Assembly (NCBI GenBank): GCA_024663395.1
Contig: JANFAH010000006.1
Coordinates: forward strand, 620,001 to 684,000
From: Pisolithus tinctorius
Taxonomy: Eukaryota; Basidiomycota; Agaricomycetes; Boletales; Pisolithaceae
Direction of reading: 5' to 3'
DNA length: 64,000 nucleotides
The first letter of the stretch is position 1. Each line of letters starts with the position of its first letter. A program made the translations under genes and the position numbers. Below, in pieces: positions 13,521 to 40,260 of the stretch. The notes under the pieces were generated by a model that saw only the letters and a program-made list of their open reading frames with translations, did not search any database and was not told where the DNA came from.

Positions 13521-13817
13521 CAGTGAGGGACAAAAGTGTTGCAATGTTTGTGAGGTGTGAATTGTTGCTGATGTAGCTTGGGCTATTCTGCACAGATAAT
13601 CATGATACCTATACCATTGGCAAGGGGTGACTCTAAGCTTTCCAGAGCACTAAGGTTCAGTCCAAACAAAGCAATACATGCTGAGATACACCCTATTCTT
13701 TCCAAAAAGTGCATTGCAATGCTTTTGTCCCTGACTGGTGAAATCATGAAAGGTGACCTTTTGATGGGATTGAGGGCATGGAGGATGGGAAAAAAAGATT
13801 ACATAATAAACCACATG
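13521..13817 (+). repeat. Left terminal inverted repeat
   Basis: 297 bp, identical to the reverse complement of 39962-40258. It contains a second, inward-facing version of the tip at 13708-13733 (CATTGCAATG...CCCTGACTG). Confidence 0.95.
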
Positions 13818-14790
13818 GTCTTCCAGATGATTTGTCAGCATGTAAACAATGACAAACATTGGACTTGTACCATTAATCCTCCCTCTTCTACCACAACTCA
13901 TGAAATCATCTCTCTAGCTCACATGGTCATTTTTTCAAGGAATTCTTATCAACTACTGGTGGCCACCACAGTGCCATCAGTATAACATGCTCTCAGAACC
14001 ATCAGTCCCTTAAAAAACCTGCTGTCAGTCATTTCCTGGACTGTTTCCCCCCCCATGCCTGATGTGTTCTGGGACTAATCAGTACTTGGAAGGCTGAAAA
14101 TGTTATGGAGGTCAATCTGGCACTTCAGAACATGATGTAAAAACCAGTCCCCTCTCAACCAATGCATTTCTGGCACAGGGACAGTGGTATGGAAGTTAGG
14201 GCAAGACAAAATCCTCTTTACCCCTGGGTGTCATCAGAAGGATATGCTACTGAACTGCCATGGAGCAGAATCCTGTGCTTCCATCTGGCCCTGAATATTG
14301 CCTTTGGTCACATATGACCAAATAATCCTTCCCCAGTCATCTACAGTTCAGATCAGAGCAAGATCTAGTGAACCCTCTTATGGTGCTCAGAGCATAAGGA
14401 GGTTTTGTCTCACCCCAACTTCCATATCAGTGTTCCTGTGCCAGAAATGCATTGGATGAGAGGGGACTGGTTTGTAAATCATGTTCTGAAGTGCCAGATT
14501 GACCTCCATAACATTTTCAGCCTTCCAAGTACTGATTAGTCCCAGAACACATCAGGCATGGGGGGGGAAACAGTCCAGGAAATAACTGACAGCAGGTTTT
14601 TTAAGGGACTGATGGTTCTGAGAGCATGTTATACTGATGGCACTGTGGTGGCCACCAGTATTTGATAAGAATTCCTTGAGAAAATGACCATGTGAGCTAG
14701 AGAGATGATTTCATGAGTTGTGGTAAAAGAGGGAGGATTAATGGTACAAGTTCAATGTTTGCCATTGTTTACATGCTGACAAATCATCTG
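13818..14790. repeat. Large palindrome inserted in the left terminal repeat
   Basis: Arms of about 390 bp (roughly 13822-14217 and 14396-14788), a few percent different, face each other around a 180-bp centre. The right terminal repeat lacks this block. Confidence 0.85.
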
Positions 14791-15145
14791 GCACTGCAGG
14801 CAAAGGCCTGATGATTGTGTCACTAAGCTGAGCTTCAAATTTACTGTCAATGAAAAATTCAGAGAGTGCTGAACAGATATTTTGAAGTGTACAGAAATTT
14901 GTCAATAGCCTTGAACTTTCTGACTGTCTGTTTACTGAGACTGCAACAAGTTTGAACAGGTGTAAATGCCCTCTAATGGAAGACATGAATTTGAAGACTG
15001 ATATGCAAAGTGCAGTGATCCAGGTCATGGAGTTTCTTTGAATTTGTGGGGCTGTGTCATAGGGTTCCAAATCAGGAATGAAACTCAACATTCTGATCAC
15101 AAAAAATGACCTCTCCAATAACCTTTGTACTTCAAGTTTAGCCAA
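14738..15145 (-). CDS. Hypothetical ORF in the left terminal repeat, pointing outward
   Basis: MAKLEVQRLLERSFFVIRML..., with a middle part SSIRGHLHLFKLVAVSVN, LLTNFCTLQN, SEFFIDSKFEAQLSDTIIRP that is also read from the right repeat (39717-39980, plus strand). Each copy points toward its own end of the unit. In the left copy the frame continues into the palindrome. Likely an exon of a protein I do not recognise; conserved reading frame in both copies is the only support. Confidence 0.4.
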   Translation of the reverse strand: MAKLEVQRLLERSFFVIRMLSFIPDLEPYDTAPQIQRNSMTWITALCISVFKFMSSIRGHLHLFKLVAVSVNRQSESSRLLTNFCTLQNICSALSEFFIDSKFEAQLSDTIIRPLPAVPDDLSACKQWQTLNLYH

Positions 15146-15192
15146 GCATCATCAATGTCCTTATAGTTGTATTACATTTGAACCAGCAGTGA

Positions 15193-15834
15193 TTGTAAAA
15201 AAGCGCCACTCTGAAGACTGATTATGAAGTATATCATGAGATCCTTGCTACATACATCCAGTTTCATATGTGATATCCAGGCAATGCTCCGAGTTGCATG
15301 TCTTGCACAGATAATGACAAACTGTTTTTCACTGTACTATAGCTGACAATGTTCAGAGGACTTGAAGTTGGGGCAGCATTTCAACACTCTCCAAATATCA
15401 TCATCATTTCTCATTGTGCATGCGTCGTGACCATCCGCCTTACATGCTTTTTTTGCAGCACACCGCTGATAGCTGATCTGGGGCCACTGCAACTCTCCAC
15501 TGCAGCTCCACTGCTGGCGCTGCCCATGTATAATGCATATCTGTAAATGTACATTCGGTAATTACATGAAGAAAAAGGAATTTTCTGTACTAGAGGTGTG
15601 ATTGTGGGGGAGAAGTGCTCAGTCAAAGGTAAATTATATCATGATTTGGCTCTTCCTGGTCCTGCAATTTCTTCTCCAAGTATTCAATCATGCTGAGAGC
15701 AATTCAATGAACTACCATGGTGAGGGTGAGGCACAAGTCTCTAGGGCGCAATTGCAAGAGGGACACAATCAATACTTCTGCCTCATGGGAGACAGAGATT
15801 AGGACAGGCTGCCAACCATTGACAAGCCTATCAG
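15193..15834. other. Unassigned sequence after the left terminal repeat
   Basis: No open frame or repeat that I can support. More CpG here than in surrounding LTR remnants. Confidence 0.4.
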
Positions 15835-17880
15835 CTACCAGATCCAAATGATATGATGACCACCCACCTCAAGCATGCTCTGTACACAGTAGATGATGAA
15901 TAGGGCACCGCTAATGATCCCAAGTACAAGAACCACCCAAACCCTCATCTCTACCAGTGAGTGCACAGTGCCCTTCAGTGTGAGATTCCATGTCCAAAGA
16001 TTCAGTTTGACAACCCTCCAAGAAGTCATGAACACTATTCAAAGATCATTAATGTGTTTGTGGGCCTTGAGATCCCTTACCATTATTCTTACATTTCCAC
16101 ACCTTGATGCAAGTGTTTTCCACAGCTTCAGTGGTTGCCATAGCAATTACACTATTACTGGAGTATTCAAAAGTCTAACACATGCTAATCAATGACCTGA
16201 GAACATAAATAGGTTGTGTGATGCACTGCGACAGCCTGCATGATGCATCCTGGAGTAAAAGTCAAAAATAACTTCCGTAGATGAGAAATGCGGACATACC
16301 TTTGTGTTCTAACAACTGGAGGAGCTTCCCTGATGGTATTTCCCAGATACAAACACCTCCATCAGATGAACCACTGACGATGGCAGCACCATCCTGGAGC
16401 CAGGACACTTGCACTGGAATGTTTTTTTCTTTGGAAAGAGGTTGATTCTTGAGACATATATCAGGGTAAGACTGTCCTGGAGAATACATGTCAACACCGT
16501 CACCCAAATTCATCAAGGCAATGCGTTTTGTGTCAAGTGAAAGCACTGCATGACCACTAGCATAGTCATCAAAAACAGATCAGTATGAAAGACAACTTCA
16601 ATGCTTACACAATTTGATGACTATGGATGGGGTTGATCTGCCAGCATTGCTCGAAAGTGTTACGCTTGACCAAAGTCAAGACATAGGGAGAGCTCAAACA
16701 CAGTCAATGGGTTTCTACTGAGCAACAGCTGCAGTAACCTCTGTAAATGACAGAGGATTTGGTCAACACCAGTAAGAGTGGTCCGGGTTAGGGACACTGA
16801 GGGCGAAGTTCTGAGGAACGCTGTGTATGATTGAGCAGCTCAAGTCTGGGTTTCCAGGACTTGAGCTGGCAAGCTAAATACTACAAGGAAACGGACCATG
16901 AGGTGTCCACATGTAACGAGGTAACTACACCATTGGTTGAACAATGACAACACATGTCCTAAGCATGTTGTGAGAATGTAATGCTAGTGGTGGAAACAGA
17001 GAGCCATTGGATCAAGGTGGAGATGGCTCTAAAAGGAAAAGATGTCCAACAGATCAAACACAAGGTAAATGTGCAATGAAAAGGGAAAAGATAGGAGTGA
17101 AACGTAACAGAAAGAGCAAATGTCCCAACAACTAGCATGAGAATTGAACATTTCAATGCCTGAACATCAGCTCAGAAACACTTACACCACACCATGGTTG
17201 AGGTAGGCGACAACCAACTCACTCCCCCTCTTTCCAAAAGCAAGCGCTCAACCACGTATCCTCTTGTTGAGTTGCTTGGCCACAAGTGGTAGTTCCCTTG
17301 GTGGAGGGAAAATCTTGAAAGTAGCATATTTATCTAAAACATGTCAATTTTACCAGAATGGCCCTTTAATATCGATAATGGAGTGCACTAGGGAAGACCT
17401 CTTTTGCGATGTGTACCTCGGAGCCTACAGCAATGGCGACATAACCACCATATTCATTGATGGTGAGTGCAAAAACCAGTGCTTTGGTACTGGTGAGAAT
17501 AGAATTAGTTGATTCCTGGACCTATTAGTGGAGTTAGTTCATTCATAGACTGAGTTGCATCCCTTACCTCTGAGTTTTCACAGATAGCTAAGGTACCATC
17601 CAAGCAACCAATGAATAAGCGATGCGAATGTTGCGGATCCCATGTCAGGCTGAGGATAGCAGAATGAAAGGCAACGCAATACAACAGTGCACCAGCAAGT
17701 GGCTCCCATACAATGAGGCTTCCATCCTCACTTCCACTTGCTAATTGACCTCTGGCCAGGGAAAAGGCAAGAGCATTAACAGAGTCAGTCCAATCAGCAT
17801 GTGCTCAGATGTAAATGGGTGGAAGGGTTTCATTGCCAGGGAATGTAATGGAGTGAGCATACCAATGGTGGGCAATTTTA
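15835..17880 (-). pseudogene. WD40-repeat gene B with C-terminal membrane segment
   Basis: Multi-exon, minus strand. In order: LASGSEDGSLIVWEPLAG and LFIGCLDGTLAI (about 17800-17560), GGYVAIAVGSEVHIAKE (about 17470-17410), DTKRIALMNLGDGVDMYSPG and IVSGSSDGGVCIWE followed by GKLLQLLEHKG (16546-16262), and a last exon with a transmembrane-like stretch VWVVLVLGIISGALFIIY (about 15970-15890). Several GH/WD-type blades are plain, which makes a beta-propeller scaffold likely. Introns are short. Exon joins were not proved and a few stops occur between pieces, so the copy may be broken. It lies in tandem with gene A upstream; the two may once have been one or duplicated. Confidence 0.65.
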
Positions 17881-18289: not shown

Positions 18290-19641
18290 TAGTGCTTACT
18301 TCAGTCAACCACACTTGGAGAAGTAATGGATCACCACTACTTGAAGACCCACTAGCAATGAAGTGCTTGTTGAACTGAGACAAGTTATACTATCTAGTTG
18401 AATCAGTCGCATGTAGAGGGTAAAAATTAAACTGTACCATATGCCAATAACTTGTACTGCATGAAGTTCTGCATACAATGTGAACAATAGGTATGAATAA
18501 GAGCATTCAGAAGACATGCCTTTGCCATGGTGTAGTACCTGAGCCAGTTTCCCAGAGTTAACATCCCACAACAATACTTGTCCATTGTCAGAACCAGTAA
18601 TCACCATTTTTCCATCTGAATCAAATTGGACATGGCATATATAGTTTTGACTTATTTTCAACTGAAGATGCTGAACGTGGTTGCAGTGAGGGCATCGGTT
18701 GATCCACCAGGCAATATATATTGACACCATCGATGAGATTCCAGACGAGTAATAGTTGGGAGATTTCATGGTACGTGGTGCTCCCTCTAAATGGAAGTAA
18801 AGTCACAAAGGAGGCCAATGGTCTAAAATAAAGTAAAATACATGTGGGTCCTCATCTTGTGATGGAATATCTGGTTCCAAGGCATAATCTTCCAAGCGAT
18901 GCTGAAATCCAACTAAGTAGAATTTCAATTAATGAAGACCAAATCATACACTTCACATGAATCCAGGAATGCAAACACTAGACAATGACCTTGGTTGAAG
19001 AAGTGAGCGGATATGGGCAGCGAAGGTAGCTGTGGATGTTGAGGGGGTGGGTGGACTTGGGCCAGGTGGAGGCTCACTGTATGTACCCTGCATGAACAAC
19101 AATAGGATGTGGTTAATGATGCTCAGCTCACCACTGTTTTCTTTCATTATTTGATACAGCACAATCCTCCCTTGCATAGTTAAAACCAAGAAGTTGTGGG
19201 TTTGGTCCAGCTCCATATATTCTACTGCAGAATTGAAGACTGTCTCCATATGGACCCATTCAAAGAGTACCTGTCAATTTTAAGTGATTGATGCTGCCCA
19301 TAAATCATCAAACCCACTGATCCAACATTGAAATGCCATACAACAATGGTCCCATTGGCGCCTGCAGACAATAGATAATAAATGTTATTGTGAACATCAT
19401 CCCAAAGCCACTTAAGGGACACCACAGGGCCCTGCTTTGGTCTTAAGCATCTGTGAAGGCTTCTGTCCTCCAGTGACCAGATGATGACATGCCCATCATC
19501 ACCTGTTTTCTGTGAGCACACACCACCACCATATGCCAATGACTTACTACCACTGGCAATGTAGCTTTCGTCATCCATGAATGCAATGCAATTGATAGGG
19601 CCAGAGTGCCCTTCGAGAGACCATTTTAGCCTGTATTCCAT
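18290..19641 (-). pseudogene. WD40-repeat gene A
   Basis: Starts MEYRLKWSLEGHSGPINCIA at 19641. Blades seen: GHVIIWSLEDRSLHRCLRP, GPVVSLKW, SAGANGTIVVWH, then ELDQTHNFLVLTMQGRIVLY (near 19190), NYICHVQFDSDGKMVITGS and NGQVLLWDVNSGKLAQVLHHG (18650-18520), and a last piece HFIASGSSSSGDPLLLQVW near 18340. Between the blades are short introns (for example GTAGTAAGTC...CAG near 19550-19500). The fold is a cytosolic protein-interaction propeller by family. It sits head-to-tail with WD40 gene B and the histone-tail gene, all on the minus strand, which suggests one cargo block. Confidence 0.7.
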
Positions 19642-19849
19642 TATAGGTTGAGTATTCGCATCAACAAAATGGCATACGATTGATGACCATTGTAGGTGGT
19701 CATGTGATCTGTCTCATGAAACCCTCGCATTAATGTCTCATAGATGGTGTGCTAGTATACCCTTAAATACTGTGTGATCAACATCTATCAAAAATCGAAG
19801 AATGTATTCACCCATGCAGTATAAATGACAATGACATGTACCAGTAGAA

Positions 19850-21543
19850 TTAAAGTGTGTCTGCAGGATAAATCACATATTTAAGCCAGCCTGATGTTGA
19901 GTCACCACAGAGTACTTTGTATGAAGCCATTAAAGGCTGGGTGTGCACTTCGAAGCTGCAAGCCTTGGCCTGACACTTGGATACTCGGGCCTTCAGAGAA
20001 TCATGTTGAGGGTAAACCTTTGACTGTGCCCACAGATGAATAGCTGCACACTTCAGGCATGCCATGGGGAGGGAGGTACCCCATGGTCGCCAGTGGCTGT
20101 GGTACCAAGAATATCTGTATCCGGTGATGAGAGGACGGGCTGTAGAAAGGGCAGGGCCTGGTAAGAGGAGGCCCCTGGGCAAACTTAAACCTGAAACATG
20201 AAAAAGGATCACATCCATGTGCATCCTCAGTGCAAGTGAACCCTCAAGTAGGTCAGGCAGGACATCTGCGAAATAATGTCCCTCAATCAGGACCTTGACA
20301 CCATACGACACAATAAACAACTTGAGGGTAGTGCTGATGAAGTCTGCTGCAGTGAATGCGAGGGTGAACTCCAGCTGGAGACTTGGAGAGGCTTGGTAAA
20401 ATCATCAAAAATAATCATAAGTAAGTCATACCGTGCAATTGATTGTTTTAGCACATCAAACAATTCCTGAAACAATATGACAGGTCCACATGTCAGCATG
20501 ACAAGCATGGAAGCATGGACCAGATCAGCAAGCAGAGGAGAGAATAACCATCCCATGAACTACATAGAAATGAGTAAGATTGCGATAAAAATGTCAATTT
20601 AATGTGCACCCTGTTGACCTCCATTGCAATGTCTTTGCCATCCTCGCCCTTGCCAGCAAAGAGGTCACCACAGGTCACTTCACTGTGGACGGTCACGAAG
20701 ATGATGGTGTGGCTGAACCTCCTTGCCACCAGTGTCATGCTGAGCTTCTTGACCTTCACCTTCCATCGATTTACCTTTGTTTGGGTGCCAATGTCAAAGG
20801 TAACAGCTAGATACTGCAGGGATTCCTTCGTGTGATACTCCTTGAGAGTTGTTTTGGGCAGCTGCAGCAGAGAACCAGGAACTGCCATTCCCATGCATTG
20901 CAGATGGAGGATCAGAGTGGATTCAGCAGAGACTTAGGATTTCGAGGACCTTTTGCAAACACCAGACATGACAAGAGGTTTTTCAAGCAGGTGGATGGTC
21001 TCCCCATGCACAGTGCACATGAAGGCCTTGCATTGTTGTTAGGTTAGTTCAGAGTGTCGATGATGTGTGACTCACAAAGTAGGGCATCAATTTTTTGTGC
21101 TTTGATGCACCCTCCACAAGCTCATGGCAACTGGGACATTGGAAGTTGACATCCACAGCACACACCTTCTTTATGGCCTGTTGCAGTAAACCTAAGCAGC
21201 ACTTGCACACCACGCATGGACAGGTCTTGCAGTCAAATAAGAAGTTACCACCATCATGGCAAAGGTAGCAATACTGAATGTGATAGCATGTTGGTGGACA
21301 CTGGAGGCAGTATAAAGGAGATATCAGACATACTCTGTTAGATGTCCACTGCTCAGGTACAATATCACCTGGGATCTCCAGGCTCTGTGCATGAGATGAG
21401 GGAGTGGGTGTCAGTGAGCAAAGAGAGGAAGTCAATTCTGCAGATACCACTTGAGTGAAGGTGGTGTGAGCTGGGTGGATGAACTTGACTTGTGTAGCAG
21501 TACCACATGCACTTTTCTTAGCTGTCTGCTTTGTTTGAGCCAT
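19850..21543 (-). pseudogene. Gene with histone H3 tail-like N-terminus and PHD-like zinc cluster
   Basis: Starts MAQTKQTAKKSACGTATQ at 21543. Histone H3 starts ARTKQTARKS after Met removal; the first ten residues differ at two places, and the Gln codon CAA could come from CGA (Arg) at a CpG. After a Ser/Thr linker comes a Cys-rich module: CLQCPPTC, CYLCHDGG, DCKTC, CKCC, QCPSCH, close to a PHD finger but with Cys where the His is expected. The donor GTGAGT at 21073 ends exon 1. Exon 2 starts at 21026 with AFMCTVHGETIHLLEKPL and LQLPKTTLKEYHTKESL. Later parts include FVTVHSEVTCGDLFAGK, MLTCGPVILFQELFDVLK, QSIARYDLLMIIFDD and, near 19900-20200, RRPWGTSLP-like GHYFADVLPDLLEGSL. One TAA breaks exon 2. 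The rest of the protein I cannot assign. Confidence 0.65.
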
Positions 21544-21705
21544 GGATATTGCCAAAGAGTGAAGGAATAATCGAGAATGTGTTGCACAATGTGCTACCAT
21601 GCATGATCTTTAAAAAATTGAAACTCAGAATCAAAGCCACATTTGTTGTCATTTTTGTTGCCTTTTCACTCTGATCAAGCAGGTGCTCACTTGCCCAGCT
21701 CACAG

Positions 21706-22265: not shown

Positions 22266-22700
22266 CTGACAATGACATGCAAGGTCCCCAAGGTATGTCA
22301 TGCAAGTGTGTTCATCAAACTGGCCCCTTCCAGGTGCTGGTCTGGGCCAACTCGTCTACGATGTCGCCAATCTCAGTTTGTCTGTCCCCATCCCTCATTT
22401 GCCATGTAGTGAGGCTGACAATGACGCACAAGGTCCCTGAGGTATGTTGTGCAAGTGCATTCATCAAACTGGCCCCTTCCGGGTGCTGGTCTGGGCTGAC
22501 TTGTCTACAACATCATCAATCTTGGTTTGTCTGTCCCCATCCCTCATTTGCTGTGTAGTGAGGCTGACAACAATGCACAAGGTCCTCGAGGTATGTCACA
22601 CAAGTGCATTCATCAAACTGGCCCCTTCCAGGTGCTGGTCTGGGCCAACTTGTCTATGGTGTCGCCAATCTCAGTTTGTCTGTTCCCATCCCTTGTAACC
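22262..22700. repeat. Minisatellite 2: three units of about 149 bp
   Basis: Follows directly on the first array. Units start at about 22262, 22411 and 22560 with GAGGCTGACAA..A and share CATCAAACTGGCCCCTTCC. Confidence 0.92.
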
Positions 22701-23442
22701 CTACCTTCTCCCTCATGGTTTTCATAGGCTTTGCATGTCAAGGAAACGAGTTTTCTCATTGTATGCTACTTGCTTCCTACCTCATTCTCAACAGGTACTG
22801 TTGGATCTATCACAGCTGCTCTCACTGACCTCTAACACTCGCGTTCACTGTTCACCTCTTACCTTTCACCGTGGCAGGACCCAATTGATTGATGAACACT
22901 ATATATCCCTATATTCACTCCTTCTCCAACATACTATCCCGCAAAACCTTGCTTAGAGCTGTCACCATTCCAGATATCCTTCCCTCTGACCTCCCTCCAG
23001 GCTCCAACTTTTCTCTCATTGCTGGTATGTCTATATATACATCCCTCTGAGCATCTTTAAGCTATCAAACTCATGATTCGTAGGCAACTTCAAGGAAATA
23101 TACAGCACAGAGAAAACAGATGAGAATGAGCTACATGCAGGGAAATGGGATGCAATTCTAACCTGCTTATTCATCGATACCATTTGTCTCTTTCTTCCCT
23201 CCCATCTATGTCCTTCATACCTCCATGCTGACCAGACCTCTAGGCTGAAAGCATTGTCAACTATCTCCATGTCCTCCACCACATCCTCACACTTGGCGGA
23301 GTCTGGATCAACCCATGTATGTCCTATTTGTCCTGAATCACGCTCCATCAATACCAATGAAATGAGTATCCTTCAATTGGATTGGACCTAGCTGAGGTCA
23401 AAGAACTCGCTCATATGATTGGGTTTAAGTTATACATACATC
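22701..23442 (-). other. Mostly unassigned; one hypothetical minus-strand exon
   Basis: At 23357-23170 the minus strand reads MERDSGQIGHTWVDPDSAKC...EDMEIVDNAF...WRYEGHRWEGRKRQ, an acidic then basic segment followed by a possible intron. I recognise no family. The rest shows nothing I can support. Confidence 0.35.
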
Positions 23443-24844: not shown

Positions 24845-25122
24845 TTAAAAAAACTCACCACAAGCTTCAAGCATTGTAGAAAATGTCTGCCCAAACATTG
24901 GGCTCGTTGAGATGTGGATCAGTGTCAACCTGTTTTGCTGGGGTCCTAAAATGTCATTTACTGTGTTGATCATATTTCCAGCGAGGTCATTCTCGATAGG
25001 TTTGTTTTTGACATCAGTTAGACAACCAGCAATGGGATAAGTATAGTGGGCAGTGTAGATATGCTTGTTTTCAAAGAGTTCCTTGAGCTTTGCCACCATC
25101 ACTGGTTTCTGTTTCAAGTGAG
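24845..25122 (-). pseudogene. Hypothetical protein fragment cut by an L2 LTR
   Basis: Minus-strand frame LKQKPVMVAKLKELFENKH, AHYTYPIAGCLTDVKNKP, NDLAGNMINTVNDILG, LIHISTSPMFGQTFSTML. It is well organised (alternating amphipathic stretches) and stops at TAA at 24845. The frame continues on the far side of the L2 LTR: 26066 and above read LLRQLRWQDTIPAH in frame, so the LTR landed in a coding exon. No family recognised. Confidence 0.45.
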
Positions 25123-26065
25123 TGTCATATCCATGACTCCCGGACTCGGACTCAGCCCAGTCCGGACCCCTAGCCCCTATCTCCGGTCAAGTCCGGTCCT
25201 GGTCCAGCCTAGAAAACCCAATCCCGGCCCTAGATAACTCAACTCCGGCCTGCATAACTCAAGTCCGGTGTTTTACCCCTATCTCCGGTCCGTTTCGGCC
25301 TCCTGGCCTTGCACTGCTCCACCCCGGTCCTCCTAGGTCCATGTCCGGGTCACCCGGACATAACTCTGGTCTGTTTCCCTTTGTTTGTACTGTATTTAGT
25401 CTAGCCTGTTCATCTGACTTTGCTTACTGTACAAATCCTGTGTCTGACCCCGTTATGCCGGTCACCTGGACTTTAGCTATTAGTCTCTGCACAGCCTCTG
25501 TGGCTATCCACACTCTTGCTAATCTTCTTGCTAATAGCTTATTAACAAGTCCAGCTTCACATTCTTTACTCCGGACTGGCCTCATGTATTTAACCCCTGT
25601 ACATACTTCATAGTACCCTCAGTCAGAATATCAACTTAGTATTACCCTCAACTCCATACTACCCCTCAAGACTACTCTATAGCTAAGGCCGAGCCTTAAG
25701 CTATCCCTGACCCCTGTCCCAAACCTCTCCCCGGCTTGCATAAGGGTACAGCACATAAGCTGAGACCAAGGGAGGTAGATCCAACCCTGGACCAGCTTCC
25801 CCCTGTGCGCACTCCAAGACCGGTCGGTTTCCCACGCTACCGGCCTTGTTCCCGTGCTCCCGGTCTTAAGTCCAGTCCTCCGGACTTAGCCCCTGACCTC
25901 TGGCCTTGACTCTGGTCTAACCAGACTTGGCCCCTGTCTCCCAGCCTTGATTCTGTCCAACCAGACTTGGCCCCTGTCTCCCGGCCTTGATTCTGGCCAC
26001 TCGGACTTGGCCCCTGTCACCCGGTCTTGAAGCCCGGTCACCCGAGGGTAAACCTGTACTTCACA
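25123..26065 (+). mobile_element. Solo LTR, family L2 (CpG-rich copy)
   Basis: 943 bp from TGTCATATCC to ACTTCACA, flanked by GTGAG at 25118-25122 and 26066-26070. It is the least decayed L2 copy of the window (many CCGG sites kept). TATTTAA near 25587 could be its TATA box. Confidence 0.95.
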
Positions 26066-26346
26066 GTGAGCAGGAATGGTGTCTTGCCACCTTAACTGCC
26101 TCAGCAGACTGTTATGGAACCATTTTCAGAGGCAACCATAACAGAAGGAGTGGCTACAATCAACCAAGCTGGTAAGCACCAATAATGATTAGGCAGTAGT
26201 GCATAGTTACCATAGAGCACTTACATGAATGGGCGATCAATGCACCTCTGACATACACCACACTTGACAGTGTCCACATGTGCAGCTCTGAACTAATCCA
26301 AACATCAATAATCAGTGACTGTTCTCTCGTGTTGTGCAGTACTCAC

Positions 26347-28344: not shown

Positions 28345-30360
28345 GTGACGTCTACATCTCAATCCCCATTACCACCAGTGAACCAAGCTTCATCGAGACA
28401 GTCAAGAGAGTCAACCCCAATCTCATCGAGACAGTCAAGGGAATCAACTCCAACTGATTGGCAGATGCCCCCCATCTCCAGGGAGAATACACCTGTCCAA
28501 CATTCACATGATGTTCAACAACCTTCTATGCCATCAAGTGGTTCTACAATTAGGATGCACACAATAGCACACCCCCAAACTGCACAACATGCCACTTCCA
28601 TACAAGTGCATCTCTCTTGCAGCGAATATCCCATTCTAATAGGATACCTGGTCTATCTAGGCAATTTTGGATTCTCAGCAGGTTGTGTGAGCTGTAGGCG
28701 GAAAAGGGAAACAGATGGCCATTGAGACCAATAGTGACAGTCAGGTAAGGCTAGTTTGTCGGTTTGTTACATGTCCTCACATCAAAAGCTTCCACAGGTC
28801 GAATTTCATATGCAAGATCTGGGGCTTCCTCCATGGCCATCTGTATCTCAGCCCCCACCACCACCTGCGCAGATTTTTTCTTCGTTGGAAAATATGCAGG
28901 CTTGGCCCCAGTTCCAGGCACCGAGCACTTTGTCATCTCCATTGCTGGTTGCAATAGGCCATGACATCCCATAACCAACATCTTCTGTCCCCCCACCAGC
29001 TCAATCAAACATGTTGCCAAGCAACGCTCCATCAGTCCATGATCGACCTGATGACAATGCCCTCAGCAAGGTGGTGGCTCCATTACTATCTTACTTCTCC
29101 ACAGGAATGGACACTCTATTGGACTCCATTCGGAAATTGCAGGCAATGTCTCATGAGACTGTGATGAAGGAGATCAGTACCATCCATGAACAGTTGAGGA
29201 CATCTAACCTAGCCTTGAAGGATCAGCCTGGTCTTGGCGAAGGAGAAAGTGGCAACTCATTCCACTGACTGTGGAAAAGGGCCATTAAATGATGTCATTT
29301 TGTTGCAGCCAATCTGGATGTCCCAATCACTGGGCAAGATGAACAAGAACACTCAGCATTCATGGTAAGGTATCACCTCTATCCTGTATATTTGGTGCTT
29401 ATTTCCTTGACAGAGCTGCATTCACATTCATACCCTTACTTTATTGAAAATAAAGGGATACAAGTATTTACACAATGCAAAATGTACACTCTCACAACTG
29501 GAAGTTGATGAATATGAGCAAGGCCTTCCAGGGTGCCTCCAAGTCACTCCAAATAACTTTATGGTCGACTGTTTGTGTAATCGAGATTCGCCATTCAACC
29601 AAGACATGGCCACTGTTTTTGCTGAAGACTTTCTAGACAAGGTTACAAGACATTCTTGGTATGCTTCTGCCAACATCCCAGAATGTTACCACAATTATGA
29701 GACAATTTGCATGGCATTCATCATGCATCTTGCTTATGTCAAGGCTCATTACAGGCAGGTGGTTGCTGCTGTGGATGAAGACCTGGACAAGGTGATACAA
29801 GCAACAAATGCTCGTCTACAGAAGTCCTCCCGTGGCTCAAGGAAAGTGTGCATAAGTTTGCCTCTTCTTTTTTTTTTTGTGGTGTCAAGTTTGTTCATTT
29901 TGTTTAGCTACTTAAAATGCATCTTGATGCGATGGCCGACCACCCAACGCTTTGACAGCATCTTCCTCTTATCAATGGTTTAGGCACACAAGCCATGAGC
30001 TCAGATGAATCCGAGGACAAGGTCAGGAGAACAATATCTTATCCTCATGTATACCCTGCTTGGCATAGCAATGAGTTTGCTAGTCTTCTGTGGCAAGCAG
30101 ATGTTGTGGTGGCAGCCAATGCTATGGTCACAATCAGTAAATGCAAGAGGGCAGGGACTCAGCTCTGGCTTCGCCCCCACAGCAGAAAGGTCAACACCAA
30201 AGCTGCTGCACCCCCTGGGCTTCCTTGTAATTGCTATAATGCCTCTTGGCTTGCCAGCTCACTTCCATGCCAAGTCAAGGCACTCCAGGTGCAAGAGGAC
30301 TATGACTTTGGTAGTAGTATGCCTAGCTCATCTACATCTTCTAACATGATGTGGTACTGA
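28345..30360 (+). pseudogene. Unknown multi-exon gene (Ser/Pro-rich N-terminus, helical middle)
   Basis: Plus strand. The N-terminal part has a direct repeat SSRQSRESTP and is Ser/Pro/Gln-rich. Next are QAWPQFQAPSTLSSP, then SKVVAPLLSYFSTGMDTLLD and SIRKLQAMSHETVMKEISTI (helical), then GYKYLHNAKCTLSQLEVDEY, FNQDMATVFAEDFLDKV, MHLAYVKAHYRQVVAAVDED, and after an intron a tail AMSSDESEDKVRR, YPAWHSNEFASLLWQAD, PPGLPCNCYNASWLASSL. The last block looks like a recurring agaricomycete hypothetical that I have no name for. In-frame breaks between the blocks are introns in part and decay in part. It lies on the transposase strand, upstream of it. Confidence 0.5.
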
Positions 30361-30422: not shown

Positions 30423-30578
30423 ATCCACCCCAAAATTGTTTGAGGTATCCATGCTACACAAAATGCATTTTGGCTGTGCCGGTGTCCTTCCCCTCAGCCT
30501 ATCCACCCCAAAGTTGTTTGAGGTATCCATGCTACATGCAATGCATTTCGACTGTGCCAGTGTCCTCGCCCTCATCTT
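30423..30578. repeat. Tandem duplication, two units of about 80 bp
   Basis: TATCCACCCCAAA.TTGTTT and GAGGTATCCATGCTACA occur twice in direct order. Confidence 0.85.
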
Positions 30579-31860
30579 TGCCCTGTCACCACCAACCTTG
30601 TTTTTGAGGTACATTGTTGCAAAATCTTGCGCAGGCCATTGATCCTGATATTGATTGAGGATTGGGAATCGAGTCCAAGCCTGTAGAATAATTTCATCAC
30701 CTTTCTGCTGTCAATGGTGGTACCAATCTTACAGCATTACGAAACATTATGACTGCCTTGGGGGTTTGCTGTGGGAATGTTAACCTCAAGTTGAGGCATT
30801 CTTCACACACTTTGTGCAGCCCTTCCTGTTATTGTGAAATGTGAAATGATTGTGGCCTACCTGCATGGACTTGTACATCTTCTCATTCCAATTTAATACA
30901 TGATGCAGCATATACCCTCCATGATTTGGTTTTGACAGGGCACCACATGGCCAAGGAATCAGACTATTTCCCTGAACAGGCAATAACTTGACCTCTTGCT
31001 CCTGTGACAGACGAATGGTATTGAAGTCATAGATTCAACAAAGAGTAACTCTAGATGCACAAGGACTTGGACTATGATCCCTGTCAAAGATCCTTCTGAG
31101 AGTTATGGGGGGGTGGTGTGGCTGATAGTCCATGGAAGTGTAAGAAATGGTGAGTGGATGGCCTTCATTGTGCTCCTTTATTACCCACAGTAACAGATCT
31201 TTTCCCAATTGTGATTGCTTTGTGCAGAGATTGGGTGCGAATGTAGGTAGACAGTGAGCAGGGATGACATCACCTGGAGCTTCCCCCTGATGCCTTTGTG
31301 TACCCTGCAGACATTTGGGGTTCCTGTCAAGGTTGAATTGGACTGATTCAATGATGAGCCTCGTGCAGTCATGACCATTTATAATGGTCGATTTCCTTCC
31401 CAATTTCCTTCCATTCAACAATCCAAATGCACACATCATGTCCTCTGCTGCATATCCCATTCCCAGTGAGCCCCATAATGTTTTACAAATGTGTGTCTTA
31501 AGCCATAGGACATGTGTAATGACTCATTGACTAATCTATACAAGGACTCACAATATGCTCGCTACTGAGAATGTCACTGTTACTCAGCTGTGGGCAACAA
31601 CTTTTGTGCCTACCTCTTCACCAGTTTCGGCCTTGGTGATGCTTGTAGCTCCACAGCACAGTGGGCATTCCCATGAGTGATATCACCCCCAACCCACTCT
31701 TCTTGATTACTGATCTACTTTACAGCATGGTTCCTCATGAAGTCACTGATTATCAACTTCACACAGTCTCTGCAGCCTACTCAGGTTGAATATGATTGAC
31801 ATATGTTTGCACTGACATGGGTTGATCGGGTATGAGCTATTCTACTATGATGTTTTCCGT
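30579..31860. other. Unassigned sequence with one open frame
   Basis: The minus-strand frame at 31460-31035 (MGYAAEDMMCAFGLLNGRKL...) is 141 aa but has no recognised motif and no partner copy, so I do not call it a gene. Nothing else supported. Confidence 0.3.
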
Positions 31861-32630
31861 GAACTGAACAACCTGTAGGCAAATGCTGCACAGTTCTCTG
31901 TCGACAGCAAAGTCTTCTTACTCTCGTTCCATGATGTGGCTATGTTCTGGTGCTTCAAGTATATGGTATACTGCCATGATCAAGTTGACTGCCACCAGCA
32001 CTGTGTTTCTGAGCCTAATGTGAAGGTGTTGTTGGACACATTTCTTGACTTTATGATTCCTGCACAGGTACTGTTGGGTGTCAGGAGTGCAGTCTCAGGG
32101 TGCACTTTCTTCCTTATCATCGGCTTTAGTCAAGCTAAATATGTCTTGGCAGTTGTGGCCTTTCAAAATACCATGATAAAGGAGTTTTGGCATCAACTGG
32201 TCAAGGGATAGTTACAGCATATGTTGTGTTCACTGCATGCCTGCCAGATGGCACTGATTTGTTTGTAGCAGTCCCAAACACTCTCCACCATGGTCCCAAA
32301 GTGAAGGTGGCACACAGTCACCTGATGGTATGGATGCCAATAGAAGGTAAGCGCATATTGTCATATCATTTTTGATTGTTTTCATCACAAAAATATCCCT
32401 CGATAGACTCCATACTCCTCAATCTCAGTCAACCACTATAGGCAACAGTGCAGGCCACACAGGTGAATGCGATCCAGGACCAACAATTACAATGGTGATT
32501 CTGCCCTTGTCAGTCAGACATCATCATTCTCAGCCATTGGACCCTGATCCAAGTTTTGATGGGGGTGAGAGTAGTTCAGATCACACTGAAACTATCTGCC
32601 AGAAGAAGAGGAAGCTCATTTGATATCTAC
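31861..32630 (+). pseudogene. Hypothetical gene pieces upstream of the transposase
   Basis: Plus-strand segments FYYDVFRELNN, QFSVDSKVFLLSFHDVAMFW, VDCHQHCVSEPNVKVLLDTF, then GIVTAYVVFTACLPDGTDLF and VAVPNTLHHGPKVKVAHSHL before a donor GTAAGC, and a charged end PDPSFDGGESSSDHTE...KKRKLI with a basic run like a nuclear signal. Conserved-looking but no family recognised. A stop and a shift separate the first two pieces. Confidence 0.4.
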
Positions 32631-33597
32631 TGTACTTCACTTTGTAACATCCAAGAAAGCAATGGGTTAGGTTATGATCAGTAACTTAGACTATAATCAC
32701 ATTAAACACTCATTTTCCACAACATGTATGATTCGAGAATGATGCACACCAAATATTACCAGCCTCGTGGTTGATTTGCAGTGAAAAGAACTCAGCAGGT
32801 ACAAAGGAAATATTATCATACTTATATCCACAGGTATGTCCTGTGCATTCCATCCTACCCCACTGTGATTGCACCATGCAAGCTGAAACAAGCATTGTTC
32901 ATATACCAGTATGGGATTGTTGATATTGCCACTGGTTCTGTTACTTAGCAGCATATCCAGGATAATCCTCGCATCGACCTCCTTGAATGGATTTGACTTG
33001 TCAGGCATGTCCATGACATGGTATGTTATACAATCAATGCAGATGGCACATGTGAGCTAATGGTGCATACGTAGTTACTAGATGAAGTGCTCATGCTCCT
33101 TGAACGAGAATGTCAAGGCAATCTGCAATTCAGTCCTGTCAATGAACCATCAATCCAAGGCCACCATGGTGTAAAACTCATGCCAGTTGATATCACAGAC
33201 AGGTCGCTCAAGCTTAAATTCCACCTGGTAACCACCACATCTATCATTCTTGTAGCCTTGATATGGATGATCATCCAAACTGTTCATTTCATTTGCAACG
33301 GAGATGACCTTCTTGCTACAATGAGTTGGATGTCAATTTCTGTCGCTTTGTCATTGATTTTTGTCCTTTTAATTACCGTTCTGTGATAGCAGCCCCATTG
33401 TTATCACATTAAATTAGTATAGAGATGTTTGTGTATATAGCATCATTTATGCTGATCATCCTCGAAGCCATGGGATGTTAATCAATTTAGGCTACTCTGA
33501 TTTATTTCCACATTGACTACAACCATAACTGACCAGTCCACAGAGGAAGAGAAGACCAGGCTGGGAGTCACCAGATCACTTTCTCAACAGAAAAGCC
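32631..33597. other. Unassigned; one frame with hydrophobic stretches
   Basis: 33087-33386 (plus) encodes two hydrophobic segments (STSIILVALIWMIIQTV-like and SISVALSLIFVLLITVL). Without a partner copy or motif I leave it unnamed. Confidence 0.3.
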
Positions 33598-36500
33598 ATG
33601 GCATCTGCGAAACATCGATGTAAATGCCAGGTGTATGGTTGCATCAGCGGATCAGACCCAGACCCTTGGATGCAGCTCCTGACCTCTGGCCACCTGTTGC
33701 CCCCATCTATGGTGTATCAACATCGTCGTGATGATAAAATCTGGTGTGCATCCAAACAATGTGAACACATGGAACTTGATCTACTTGTAGCCACCACTTT
33801 ACTGAAGACTCACAGTGATGGTGTTGTATTGTCCAGGGCACATGAGAGCGAGTTGGGAAACGAACCTGTTTTTGTTCCTAATACACCCCTCAGAGTACCT
33901 GAGCAAGGTATGGTCACATTCTTCAGAAATGATGGCTGTCACATATATTAAGTGTAGAATCTACTTTGGCTGCTGCCCTTCTGTTATTGCAGCAATATTG
34001 CAACATGTTCCAATCTACAGTCTCATCATTTACTCCACCTTGCCTCAGGTTCACATCAGACCATCCAATCACTACAGGTGCTCTGCCTCCCATTGATCCC
34101 AATGATGAAAGAGGTTCTCAGGCATTTATTATTCATCAGCAATACATCGAGAAGTTGTTTGAACTTGTTTGTGGTGTATCTGGTGATGAAGATGACGATG
34201 TCATATCAGCCAGGAAGAGGCTTATCCTCGACATCCAAGAACACCAAGGTTATCTTGAACGTATTCGTAACTATGAATGGGATCGACATAAGGCAGAAAT
34301 CATGGCGAAGGAGGTGCCTAGCATCAGGTCTTCTGTTCCAATGATTGTAATGACAGGTAGGTGTGGCAATGTTGGGTTTTGAGCATACTAAGTTTCAAAT
34401 CAGATCACTTCTGTAGTACTTTGGACACCCTCAGAAACACTGCCTTACCCCTGTTACTAGGCATCCTTGGGGCTGGTATTTTGCATGTACTTGCTGGACT
34501 CTCACAGCACCACACAAACTTCCTCCTATCAATTTTACAGTCTGTTGTCATGGCTGCAGTTGGTGAAGTCACTGTCAACCTCCTAAAATCTGGCAGTCAT
34601 CATCAGATTAGGGATGGGATTGATTCACTCACCTCAGGCTGGCCAAAGGACATATGCAGCACTCTCAACCTCCTGCATATTGACCCAGAGCTACTCCAAT
34701 ATATTTGCTGTCCAACCTGTTTCTTGTTGTATGGACCATTTCCTGAACAACAGACAGAAAGCTATCAGAATATCACCACCCACTGCACTCATCATGCAAT
34801 GCCATCAGACAAGCCTTGTGGAGTGCAACTATTTGGGAAAAGTGGATCTCCTAACCGTCATTTTTGGTACCAGCCCCTTGATTCATGGATCACTCGTTTC
34901 CTTTCACAAGCCGAGGTCATGACATCTCTGCATACAGCACCTGGTCCGGTTTCCACTCACATGTTAGATATATGGGATGGATCTGTTCTCAGACAATTCC
35001 GAGGCCCTGATAACAACTTGTACTTTGGGTCCGAAAACCCACGTTCAGAAGTTCACCTGGCCTTCAGCCTATTTGTTGACTGGTTCAATCCCTTTGGCAA
35101 CAAACAAGGCAGAAAGCACACCTCATTTGGTGCCATTTACATGGTCTGTCTCAATTTACCAATTCACCTATGCTATCAACTTGAAAATGTTTATATTGCT
35201 GGCATAATTCCCGGGCCTCAAGAGCCATCATCATACCATCTAAATCATGTACTGCAGCCACTAGTCGATGACTTAATTCATCGCTGGGCTCCAGGATTAT
35301 GCCTGACATGCACTACTGTTCATACATTTGGATGTCTGGTGCACTGTGCAGTGATACCACTTGTCTGTGACTTGTTAGCAGCATGAAAAACTGCTGGGTT
35401 CGCAGGCCTAGGGCCTATGAAAGGAAGGTTTTGCTCATTTTGCCAGCAAAGTGGTTCAGATTTCAGCAACACAGATATATTGACTTGGTGGTGGCAAATG
35501 TGGCATGAGCACTTTGCAATTGCGAAGATGTGGAGGGACACACATACAGATGGGACAAGACAGCGAATATATGACATGTTTGGAGTTAGATGGTCCAAAC
35601 TGTTGCGCCTACCCTACTGGGATCCTACCCACTTCATGGTTGTTGAAGTGATGCACAATTTCTTCCTTGGAGACCTCCAACACCACTGTCGAAAGGTACT
35701 TGGCATGAGTGCTGATGTGAAGTCTGCCACCAAAACTCATATCCGACCACACCCCCGAGGAACAACAGTGAGAACTCTATACTGGGATTGAAGCCATCAA
35801 GAAACGCTTGTTGTCAGCTCTAACCAAGTTGAGAAGGGGCTACATCATTGCACTCACCAAAGCAAACAATGTTCTACCAGAGGTCAATATCAGTAATGAC
35901 CCATTGGTTAGACTGTATAAAGCCGATCAGATGACTGGAAAGATGGCATATGCACAAGTGCTTATTGACTGGGTAAGCCTATTAGTTTGCTCTGAAACCA
36001 TTTCATTACCTTCTTTCTAGCATAGACTACATGGGGATCCTGAAATACACTGCCCATGCATCTTTCCTCACCCCATGGTGGACCTATCCACAGCATGGTC
36101 AAATGCCCCATCAATGACTATCCTTGATCAGTCAGTGTTATCAGAAGCATGGAAAGACATGGTGAGAACTACTTTACCATCATGGGTTGCTCACACACCT
36201 CACAACCTTGGCAGTCCTGGTCATGGAAAACTCAAAGCTGACCAGTGGCGGACAGCCTGTTTAATTAACCTGGTTATCACACTGTGCAGGTTATGGGGTA
36301 GCAATAATGCAAGTGAAAAAGATGCACTGCTGTTGTGCAATTACCTCTCTCTTGTGACTGCAGTCTGCTGGGCAACCACCCGCTCCACTTCTGACCAACA
36401 CACTGAAATTATCAAGAAACATCTGGCATACTATACTCGCAGCACCTTACACATTTTTGGTCCATGGGCACTGGTTTATAACAACCATGCATCCTTCCAT

Positions 36501-37401
36501 GTGCCTGAGTGCCTGTGTGCATTTGGTCCTACCCATGGATGGTGGGCATTTCCCTTCAAAAGATACAACAGCATCTTACAATCCTTCAAAACAAATACCA
36601 GGATTGGTGAGCTTTATGGTCTGTGTTTGGGTCAGTACTTATGAACCCCTTGCAGGTGAGATGGAACACACCTTGTTGAAGGCCTTCTGCTGGGGAAGTA
36701 ACTTGAGGTCCTTACTTGGCACGAACACATTAGATTCCCTTCGGGGTCTTTGTGAACTATTTTTGCAATTCTTCAGCATACCCATTCCATGCCTTGATGT
36801 GACTCGTGGAAGTGATGTCCCTAACATCACCCAGAACATTGACAGACTCCCAATGCTTTCTGACCAAACATACAAGTGCCTCCTCGATTGTCTCAACAAA
36901 GGTGTTGTTCCTGGACACCATTATGTGTCTTATCGTGAAGATTCCCAACCTAACACCTGGGTTGTCCAGCCCTATGTACAGGAAAAGGACTTGGTCAAAA
37001 TTCAGCAAATGACCTTCACTTGCTCTGCAAAGCATCTCAGGAATAGTCATGTCTTGTTCTGCTTTGTGGGTGAATCACTCCAGCATGCCAGGGAAATCCA
37101 ACGCATCTTCGTACATCAAAGGTGTGGACCATCAGGTGACCTCATTACTGAATTTTTCTATGTGGTACAACAATTTCGAGAGCTTCCTGATGAGCTAGCT
37201 GTGCATGACCCATACCAGCAATTCCCACTTCTCTTCATGTGGCTCTGTCATAACGAATTCACAGAGGAGGAACAGGTTATACAGTCTCACCATATCATCA
37301 GTCATTTTGCTGGGTGCCCTTATGAGAGTAAAGAACTCCTGGGAAATTTTCTTGTGGTATTGTCACTAAGCAGGGTCTGTCTCACAGTTCTGTTTGAGTG
37401 A
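33598..37401 (+). pseudogene. Transposase_21 (tnp2-type) transposase
   Basis: Plus strand, multi-exon. The start ATG is at 33598 (MASAKHRCKCQVYGC); likely intron 33908-34078 joins VPEQ to GALPPIDPND. Recognisable blocks: PTCFLLYGPFP with flanking Cys, LAFSLFVDWFNPFGNKQGRK, GAIYMVCLNLP, IAGIIPGPQEP, LNHVLQPLVDDLI, FCSFCQQSG, WSKLLRLPYWDPTHFMVVEV followed by MHNFFLGDLQHHCR, and later a DUF4218-like end (HGWWAFPFKRYN..LQ..KTN). This is the order of mushroom transposases of the CACTA/Plavaka kind, where Asp residues in DWFNPFGNK and WDP belong to the presumed catalytic core. It is broken by TGA at 35384-35386 (from CGA after AA) and a frameshift near 35765. Whether it moved the unit that holds it is not shown. 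Confidence 0.82.
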
Positions 37402-37766
37402 AGTGAAATGCTTATACTATGCTTTATATCTAGGACTGAGCCAGTTCAGATCCACGTGATATAACCCAGGGCTTGGAGAAGTACAAGAATATGTAGTTAT
37501 AGTCATTACAAATGTTTCGCCAGCACATGCTTATATTGAAATCAGCCCCATTGCCTAAAATACAGAGTCATGGTTATACACAATTTGCTGGACTATAAAT
37601 CGAAATCAGAAAGCTTTACTTGTTACGCCTATTAGAATGGTGCACACTGATATTTGCTAAGTTGCTTCTCAATCATCCTTTAATTGAGCAGTGTCAAAAT
37701 ATGATTGTTTCTCACATCTTTATCTGGCATGACAGTCCTTTGTGAACTGTGATGCTGGCCAGGCAA
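37402..37766. other. Unassigned spacer
   Basis: No gene or repeat recognised. The last bases, GGCAA, are the duplication beside the next LTR. Confidence 0.4.
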
Positions 37767-38671
37767 TGTGAAGTACAGGTTTACCCTCAGGTGACCAGGC
37801 TTCAAGACCGGGTGACAGGGGCTTAAGTCCGAGTGGCTAAAGTCAAGGTCAGGAGACAGGGGCCAAGTCTGGTTGGACCGGAGTTAAGGCTGGAGGTCAG
37901 GGGCTAAGTCCAGAGGACCAGACTTAAGGCCGGGAGCATGGGAACAAGACCGGTAGTGTGGGAAACCGACTGGTGTTGGAGTGCGCACAAGGGGAAGCCA
38001 GTCCAGGGTTGGATCTACCTCCCTTGGTCTCAGCTTATGTGCTGTACCCTTATGCAAGCTGGGGAGAGGTCCAGGACAGGGGCTGGGGATAGCTTAAGGC
38101 TTGGCCTTAGCTATAGAGTAGTCTCAGGGTGTAGTACAGGAGTTGAGGGTAATACTTAATTGATATTCTGACTGAGGGTGCTACAAAGTATGTACAGGGG
38201 TTAAATACATGAGGCCAGTCCAGGATAATGAACATAGAGCCGGACTTGTTAATAAGCTATTAGCAAGAAGATTAGCAAGAGAGTGGATAGCCATAGTGGC
38301 TGTGCCGAGGCTAATAGCCAAAGTCCAGGTGACCAGCATACCAGGGTCAGACACAGGATTTGTACAGTAAGCAAAGTCAGATGAACAGGCTAGACTAAAT
38401 ATAGTACAAACAAAGGGAAACAGACCGGAGTTATGTCCGGGTCACCCAGACATAGACCTGGGAGGACCGGGGTGGAGCAGCACAAGGCTGGGAGGCCGAA
38501 ACAGACCGGAGATAGGGGTAAAACACCGGACTTGAGTTATGCAGGCTGGAGTTGAGTTATCTAGGGCCAGGATTGGGTTTTCTAGGCTGGACTAGGACCA
38601 GACTTGACCGGAGATAGGGGCTAGGGGTCCGGACTGGACTGGGACTGAGTCTGAGAGTCATGGATATGACA
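37767..38671 (-). mobile_element. Solo LTR, family L2
   Basis: 905 bp in minus orientation, TGTGAAGTACAGG... to ...GGATATGACA, flanked by GGCAA at 37762-37766 and 38672-38676. Confidence 0.95.
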
Positions 38672-38676
38672 GGCAA

Positions 38677-39546
38677 TGAGTATACAATGCTTCACTATGC
38701 TTTTCATTGCTTTCTATTCACCTCTAACTGTGGACTTTTTGATGAAGGTGCCAACCTCTGAAAGTTTCATCACACATTGCCAAGAAGATGTTGCACCATA
38801 TTGACCATATAGGCAGGTAGAGACTGATGTACATGGCTTTCTACCTAGTTCATCCATTCATCCATCGCTCACTGCTGCAGGCAATCCCAATACACTGACA
38901 ATCGTTCCTGCTTTGTGAATGTATAAGAGTCAAGCCTATCATCACTGTTGAATTGATGGACAGAGATGTAAGAATTTATTTCCATTCAGTTGCATGAATG
39001 ACTGCATACTTTCTCTACAGACCATTCCCATTCATCAGCAGCGATTTCCATTGACAGTTCCACTCTCTCCTCAAAGTGAAGTGGATGCACATGTGCCCAT
39101 CTGTAGTATTGCCAATGTGAACATTGCTGTAAAGGATAGTGGGGCAGAAAGGTACATCTCAATATATAGAATTGGAGCAAGTGGCTTCAATCACGAGTAG
39201 CTATGCAACAGTTACAAGACCCAATCATCAGGAACACAAAATCCATAACCTCAATGTCACAACAGGATGATACATAATGACCCATTGCCTCCCTTTGCAG
39301 TACCCTCCATCTTGTTCTCGTGCAGTGGATGGCGATCTTTACATTCATCACTACAGCAATGAAAAGGTTCAGATATGGTTGTGAGAAGGGGATCAATGGA
39401 TAAGTGATGTTTCGGATGGTCATCATCACCCACTGTTGCAGGACTACCGTCTCTTCGTTGCTGACAGTATAGAACCTACCTGGGTAACAAAGAAAACAAG
39501 ATCAACTTACAAGGGGAGGATTCATGGCCACCAGAAGAAGGTGGAT
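38677..39546. other. Unassigned sequence before the right terminal repeat
   Basis: No frame with a recognised motif; nothing else supported. Confidence 0.35.
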
Positions 39547-40258
39547 TTATGATCACTGCTGGTTCAAATGTAATACAACTATAAGGACATTGATGATGCT
39601 TGGCTAAACTTGAAGTACAAAGGTTATTGGAGAGGTCATTTTTTGTGATCAGAATGTTGAGTTTCATTCCTGATTTGAAACCCTATGACACAGCCCCATG
39701 AATTCAAAGAAACTCCATGACCTGGATCACTGCACTTTGCAGATCAGTCTTCAAATTCACGTCTTCCATTAGAGGGCATTTACACCTGTTCAAACTTGTT
39801 GCAGTCTCAGTAAACAGACAGTCAGAAAGTTCAAGGCTATTGACGAATTTCTGTACACTTCAAAATATCCATTCAGTGCTCTCTGAATTTTTTGTTGACA
39901 GTGAATTTGAAGCTCAGCTTAGTGACACAATCATCAGGCCTTTGCCTGCAGTGTGGATGATCATGTGGTTTATTATGTAATCTTTTTTTCCCATCCTCCA
40001 TGCCCTCAATCCCATCAAAAGGTCACCTTTCATGATTTCACCAGTCAGGGACAAAAGCATTGCAATGCACTTTTTGGAAAGAATAGGGTGTATCTCAGCA
40101 TGTATTGCTTTGTTTGGACTGAACCTTAGTGCTCTGGAAAGCTTAGAGTCACCCCTTGCCAATGGTATAGGTATCATGATTATCTGTGCAGAATAGCCCA
40201 AGCTACATCAGCAACAATTCACACCTCACAAACATTGCAACACTTTTGTCCCTCACTG
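39547..40258 (-). repeat. Right terminal inverted repeat
   Basis: The outer 297 bp (39962-40258) are identical to the left end inverted. 39547-39950 matches 14791-15192 inverted with a few percent difference. It carries the outward-pointing ORF segment at 39717-39980 (MTWITALCRSVFKFTSSIRG...). Confidence 0.93.
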
Positions 40259-40260
40259 TA

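Follow-up and report, generated by a model that had tools for sequence, protein, structure and literature searches.

EnSpm/CACTA transposons are characterized by CAC..GTG ends, a 3-bp target duplication and a DDE transposase with C(2)C and H(3)H motifs. So far as the accessible text of the source papers goes, an EnSpm element with complete ends from Chenopodium quinoa measures 9,486 bp and has 28-bp inverted repeats and two open reading frames (ORFs) (PMC8978399), and in the red alga Chondrus crispus there are En/Spm families that span 16-20 kb and have 4-5 ORFs (Kojima et al. 2013, cited in PMC6431247). The fungal transposons that bear a TET/JBP gene, which is thought to fight silencing, include EnSpm elements; in the Boletales only Kyakuja is given as TET-bearing, and Pisolithus is absent from the main text of that paper (Kojima 2025, PMC12730594). 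Starships, which are giant fungal elements with gene cargo, have a tyrosine-recombinase captain (PMC13066641). Here we analyze a window of 64,000 bp from Pisolithus tinctorius (contig JANFAH010000006.1, hereafter C6, positions 620001-684000), in which a 25,162-bp unit is very probably both mobile and a giant EnSpm/CACTA transposon.

The unit shares with EnSpm/CACTA elements the CAC..GTG ends, the 3-bp duplication, the transposase family and the DDE transposase motifs. In comparison with the C. quinoa element as described in the accessible text, the Pisolithus families are larger (22-25 kb), have inverted repeats of 0.8-1.9 kb and carry about nine accessory genes, against two ORFs in all. The Chondrus crispus families, which we compare through the citing paper, are likewise enlarged, multi-ORF EnSpm elements, but they belong to a red alga and have fewer ORFs. 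To our knowledge, few cut-and-paste DNA transposons have a conserved gene suite. We regard a CACTA giant with a conserved eight-gene set, long inverted repeats and a histone H3-tail cargo gene as a new variant within EnSpm/CACTA. Among the best-ranked papers of a literature search that covered subscription journals thinly, no title or abstract opening named an H3-tail protein encoded on a transposon, nor a giant CACTA element from Pisolithus; within the same limited reach, the eight-gene set and the long inverted repeats were not met either.

Borders, copies and target sites

The unit occupies positions 14792-39953. It starts with CACTGCAGGCAAAGGCC and ends with the reverse complement of that sequence; a TGG adjoins each end (14789-14791 and 39954-39956). 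Its terminal inverted repeats, 408 bp long and 96% identical, lie at 14792-15199 on the plus strand and at 39546-39953 on the minus strand. Comparison of the 408-bp end with the 92.5-Mb genome gave 19 matches, among them five inverted pairs of at least 95% identity, which define family 1: the window copy on C6 and copies on contigs C16, C11, C17 and C3. The other matches are a single end on C13, for which neither a partner nor an interior was found in 25.7 kb upstream, a diverged pair 65 kb apart on C18 (66-70%), and six short matches of about 70 bp. All five full copies have the termini CACTGCAGG...CCTGCAGTG, the CAC..GTG form of EnSpm/CACTA.

The five copies measure 25,162 bp (C6), 22,305 bp (C16), 26,422 bp (C11), 22,304 bp (C17, in opposite orientation) and 22,342 bp (C3), and family 1 is about 22.3 kb long when free of later insertions. 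Their aligned interiors are 95.0-99.5% identical in pairwise comparison. The inverted repeats of the other four copies are longer than those in the window, at 786 bp in C16 and C11 (99.7-99.9% identity) and 786-796 bp in C17 and C3 (96%); in the window copy the right repeat is shortened, the adjoining 546 bp having been lost. Four of the five copies are flanked by exact 3-bp duplications that differ from one another (TGG in C6, TTG in C16, TGA in C17, TCA in C3); the sole family-1 copy without an exact duplication is that on C11, with unequal flanks (TTA/TTG). Including three copies of a second family and the C18 relative described below, the duplication is exact in 8 of 9 cases.

Target sites without the insertion were seen for two of the five copies. 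For the window copy, a single TGG is present in 6/6 loci checked of the repeat in which it sits (L003-L008, representing four places). For the C17 copy, the joined flanks run through uninterrupted in all 40 scored matches, at 87-90% identity (53 candidates). Because five copies lie at different places with the same ends and, in four of them, exact 3-bp duplications of their own, we conclude that the element moved as one unit, and we consider the mobility of 14792-39953 practically certain. The first-pass annotation had proposed that a large gene-rich block with a tnp2-type enzyme entered as a unit; the five syntenic copies bear this out, although the borders and class given to it were wrong.

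The short matches of about 70 bp to the element end (77-81% identity, same orientation) are spaced 5-7 kb apart on C34 (563922, 568889 and 575914) and on C17 (727869, 732836 and 739223), in a similar pattern on both contigs.

The outer inverted ends

The first-pass annotation placed the borders of the unit further out, at a pair of inverted ends. These ends are real: 13521-13817 and 39962-40258 are 297 bp long, inverted and 100% identical, and TA stands on either side of them (13519-13520, the left target duplication, and 40259-40260), as is the case for Tc1/mariner insertions. When the 297-bp end was searched against the genome (651 candidates at first look, 40 matches scored), 30 of the 40 formed 15 inverted pairs about 1.28 kb apart, eight were single and two were the window's own pair. 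Full, near-palindromic foldback copies of 1.58 kb are found at L005-L008 (two places), and the window holds such a copy cut in two, at 13519-14791 and 39954-40260. Its left 1.27 kb (13521-14791, plus strand) and its right 0.3 kb (39954-40258, plus strand), the first three bases of which are the duplicated TGG, lie on the two sides of the giant unit. The sole ORF of at least 100 amino acids wholly inside the window's foldback sequence encodes 137 amino acids.

Since the foldback ends pair about 1.28 kb apart and the window copy is the same element in two halves, the outer ends are not the borders of the large mobile unit. They belong to a small, common, Tc1-like foldback element (about 1.58 kb, with a TA target) that is separate from the cargo unit, and borders at 13521 and 40258 are therefore rejected. 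A composite transposon made of two foldback elements was likewise rejected, because a single foldback element accounts for both flanking parts, and the TGG at which the unit split it is uninterrupted in the six other loci checked (four places). An older repeat around the foldback element, named 'M', is interrupted in the window, as had been supposed from its reading frame; it is contiguous at a related place, L005, where 13105-13518 and 40260-40993 match L005 2034-2446 and 2448-3185 at 75%.

Transposase and classification

The transposase gene (33604-37377, plus strand) is broken in the window copy. In the C16 copy it matches Transposase_21 (PF02992) with an E value of 1e-9, and its conserved blocks are intact there, whereas in the other four copies they are interrupted by stops or frame changes. 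The motifs DWFNPFG, CDLLAARKTAG, CSFC, HASFH and FERYNG occur in this order. EnSpm and its relatives have the transposase pattern D, D, C(2)C, H(3-4)H, E in the accessible text of PMC12730594, and the family-1 motifs fit it, with our choice of catalytic residues being a putative one. Subterminal repeats and a second, TNPA-like ORF are further criteria for EnSpm/CACTA; besides the transposase, a second conserved ORF, whether TNPA-like or not, is present in a gene that we call 'coil'. When the best 7,993 candidates were scored against the transposase of the second family, at least 275 related proteins were found at E <=0.001. Nearly all of the 120 listed have PF02992, and Pisolithus, Leucogyrophana, Trametes, Ganoderma and Hypsizygus are represented among those listed.

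An element moved by its own tnp2-type transposase is expected to have the features seen here, namely CACTG ends, 3-bp duplications and inverted repeats of some length. There is thus no odd pairing of Tc1-like ends with a tnp2 enzyme, as had been suggested; the foldback element is a separate, earlier insertion that served as target. Nor is a new large element class called for, and we assign the unit with high confidence to EnSpm/CACTA, as a giant family with conserved cargo. The Transposase_21, WD40 and histone-tail-like genes named in the first-pass annotation were all recovered in the C16 copy.

A second family and a shared gene set

A second family is represented on contig C19 by a unit of 24,507 bp, which has the ends CACAGCGGGC and inverted repeats that measure 1,888 bp (99.9% identity); its transposase is 64% identical to that of family 1. 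The 400-bp end of this family has 13 genome matches that include three full pairs, on C19, C17 and C52. All three pairs have CACAG...CTGTG termini and exact target duplications (AGC, TCT and TGG). The interior was read at C19, and C17 and C52 were covered by their ends and transposase matches.

Families 1 and 2 share 24 matching blocks at the protein level, one of which lies on the strand opposite WD40 gene B. These define a common set of eight genes: WD40 A, WD40 B, a RING-like gene, 'coil', G8, G9, the transposase and G12. Gene order is partly changed between the families. In the shared blocks, amino-acid identity is 36-69%, dN is 0.21-0.53, and dS is at least 1.45 and often saturated. Such low dN against high or saturated dS indicates purifying selection, and neither stops nor frame changes occur in the conserved blocks of the seven accessory genes in C16 and C11. 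On the basis of these substitution patterns, the shared accessory genes are likely to be functional, and since they are under selection, they most likely serve the element. The retention of one eight-gene set in two families that diverged long ago points to transposon-borne cargo under selection in a mushroom. The C19 unit also has an F-box gene, of which the Pfam scan of C16 showed none.

More distant relatives were also found. The C18 relative (218075-283046), of which the outer 9.6-9.9 kb on each side were examined, has an AAG/AAG duplication and keeps the ends, G12 and a transposase gene with stops. On C177 (4246-28910 and beyond), C51, C7 (26-51k), C32 and C42 (L065-L076), inverted repeats about 24 kb apart enclose transposases of 36-53% identity. 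The C177 repeat arms continue more than 1.5 kb outward, and no true end was found within that distance. This set probably represents a third giant family.

Later insertions and CpG decay

In comparison with the C16 copy, the window copy has five insertions, of 457, 719, 948, 405 and 910 bp, in addition to the 546-bp loss beside its right repeat. The insertions at 25117-26064 and 37760-38669 are repeats with further copies in the window (at 10.1k, 12.3k, 45.7k and 54.3k). The C11 copy has one insertion, of 4,138 bp.

The window copy has a CpG observed/expected ratio of 0.26, compared with 0.66-0.85 for the other four. With the direction of each substitution taken from the majority of the five copies, 766 substitutions are unique to the window copy, and 572 of them fall at CpG and change C to T or G to A. 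Changes of the same type make up 140/167 in C17, 38/48 in C11, 9/12 in C3 and 6/14 in C16. Methylation of cytosine followed by deamination yields such C to T and G to A losses at CpG, and the decay of the copies is consistent with this process, which would reflect silencing pressure. The window copy is decayed, both by CpG loss and by its five nested insertions.

The H3-tail protein

The protein encoded at 19853-21543 (minus strand; exons predicted) begins like a histone H3 tail, which is followed by a zinc finger and then by a domain predicted to be caspase/CHAT-like. Its best sequence-profile match in the PDB is 3a1b, the DNMT3A ADD domain joined to an H3 tail, at 32.4 bits, against 24-28 bits for H3 alone. 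As in 3a1b, the H3 tail adjoins a zinc finger; the Pisolithus protein differs in being a natural fungal protein and in its caspase/CHAT-like domain. ADD/PHD fingers of the DNMT3A type read the H3 tail; with so small a gain in bits over H3 alone, the Pisolithus finger is at most a candidate member. A Pfam scan of four members of the family (P0002, P0017, P0060 and P0070) returned no domain, and no finger, at the cut-off. The gene has a dN/dS of 0.17 (exons only, 467 codons). The family is large, is spread over many loci and several repeats, and extends beyond Pisolithus to Suillus, Rhizopogon and Ganoderma (P0060-P0061, P0065-P0066 and P0070-P0071). Four of its members were used as queries against the C19 unit, where they had no H3-tail match.

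The H3-tail gene lies on a 1.8-kb piece that occurs at L047 1747-3567 (C14) and at six other places, in otherwise different repeats, and its flanks are common to four of the five places where flanks were read. The possibility that at C14 the gene moves with a 38-41% identical transposase was rejected, as that 26-kb stretch has neither inverted ends nor other cargo. The H3 region at C14 is part of a repeat common to C7, C3, C12 and C4, and the borders of that repeat unit were not found.

Alternative explanations and proposed history

One could suppose that unrelated pieces accumulated within a small Tc1/foldback element to make up the 26.7-kb stretch, which as a whole would never have moved. 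The 297-bp ends are indeed a small foldback element, and five later insertions do lie inside the unit, but the interior is collinear at four other places (95-99.5%), with the same ends and, at three of them, its own exact 3-bp duplication. The syntenic copies refute nested insertion for 14792-39953, though it does apply to the five insertions and to the shell around the unit, so that as an account of the whole it is extremely improbable. The first-pass annotation had offered a test on this point, namely that nested insertions would be indicated if the ends were found only as a small Tc1/MITE and the inner genes at unrelated sites. Within this genome, the ends are a small foldback element in the matches seen; the inner genes nevertheless travel together. 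We give just as little credence to membership of another giant class, be it Starship, KDZ, Plavaka, Polinton or a TET-bearing transposon. Size and cargo are Starship-like, and KDZ and Plavaka elements occur in basidiomycetes. Against this, the Pfam scan of C16 gave Transposase_21 and none of the rival marker domains at the cut-offs used: in six frames, no captain recombinase (which we take to be DUF3435 in Pfam), KDZ, Plavaka, DNA polymerase, capsid or TET/JBP domain was found at E up to 0.1 or 0.01, in a scan that could miss a gene split by an intron. Starships have a captain recombinase, where the Pisolithus unit has a DDE transposase and long inverted ends. Plavaka termini are TGT..ACA or CATCA..TGATG in the accessible text of PMC12730594 (section 18), unlike the CACTG ends found here. 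The TET/JBP transposons, so far as that text describes them, are also fungal DNA transposons, some of them EnSpm, with a putative anti-silencing gene, but the C16 copy, in which no TET/JBP domain was found, has H3-tail, WD40, RING-like and other genes. A further explanation, that the cargo is randomly captured host sequence of the Pack type without function for the element, gains something from a methyltransferase gene fragment that looks captured, with an expanded exon, and from several genes being broken in C3, C6 and C17. It is improbable in view of the seven accessory genes common to family 2, with their low dN and high or saturated dS, and of the intact blocks in C16 and C11.

The sequence evidence therefore favors a giant EnSpm/CACTA transposon, with the following history. 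The older 'M' repeat first took up the small Tc1-like foldback element at TA; the giant element then jumped into the foldback element at TGG, and the window copy afterwards received five insertions and decayed. From what is known of the family, the transposase would recognize the CACTG ends, excise the element and make a 3-bp staggered cut on insertion. The shared genes (the two WD40 genes, the RING-like gene, 'coil', G8, G9 and G12) may help in transposition or in escape from control, rather than being dead passengers, and the H3-tail protein might act on chromatin-based silencing, the pressure of which would be visible as CpG decay. We favor a role in countering chromatin silencing, though with low confidence. 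The conserved H3 tail points to chromatin, but the 3a1b match gains only a few bits from the zinc finger, which weakens the case. Another role for the element or its host, for instance in programmed cell death or in telling self from non-self, is about as likely: it would agree with the caspase/CHAT-like fold match and with a family so widely distributed over loci and repeats, and less well with the H3 tail. Proteases of clan CD with a caspase/CHAT fold have a His-Cys dyad after two neighboring strands. More speculatively still, Agaricomycetes may harbor a tribe of giant CACTA elements with a conserved accessory set, some of which carry a protein made up of an H3 tail, an H3-reader finger and a caspase-like protease that disarms silencing, as a decoy or by clipping H3 or silencing factors, and the gene for it may shuttle between unrelated mobile families in the manner of TET/JBP genes. 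With an H3 tail, zinc finger and predicted caspase-like domain in one protein, a connection of the mobile element with chromatin silencing can be put to the test; a similar case has been made for TET/JBP genes in the accessible text of Kojima 2025 (PMC12730594).

Genes of the window copy

Besides the transposase gene, the window copy has about nine cargo genes. WD40 gene A (16277-17833, minus strand; with the 457-bp insertion) and the conserved part of WD40 gene B (18518-19653, minus strand) both have Pfam matches in C16 and are kept in family 2. A carnosine N-methyltransferase (CARME) gene fragment (22324-23184, plus strand) adjoins the H3-tail gene; it is present in all five family-1 copies and matches PF07942 in C16 (E 1.5e-13). 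One of its exons is expanded as a 149-bp tandem repeat, and this exon presumably encodes methyltransferase motif I. Fuller CARME copies at C18 and C86 are presumably host genes. The RING-like gene (24876-26182, minus strand) is split by the 948-bp insertion. The 'coil' gene (27650-30360, plus strand; with the 405-bp insertion) encodes an accessory protein predicted to be mostly helical (pLDDT 71), and its part conserved in family 2 spans 29050-30309. G8 (30555-31133, minus strand) and G9 (31555-32082, plus strand) are common to family 2, and the small gene G12 (39208-39525, plus strand) is also found both there and in the C18 relative. G10 (33075-33383, plus strand), an exon of a possible membrane protein, lies outside the shared set, and a relative is fused to an H3-tail protein in a P. 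albus gene model. An Rfam scan of window positions 13000-41000 gave nothing at the gathering cut-off. Elsewhere in the window, 48980-49370 is a tandem array whose repeat period is 43-44 bp.

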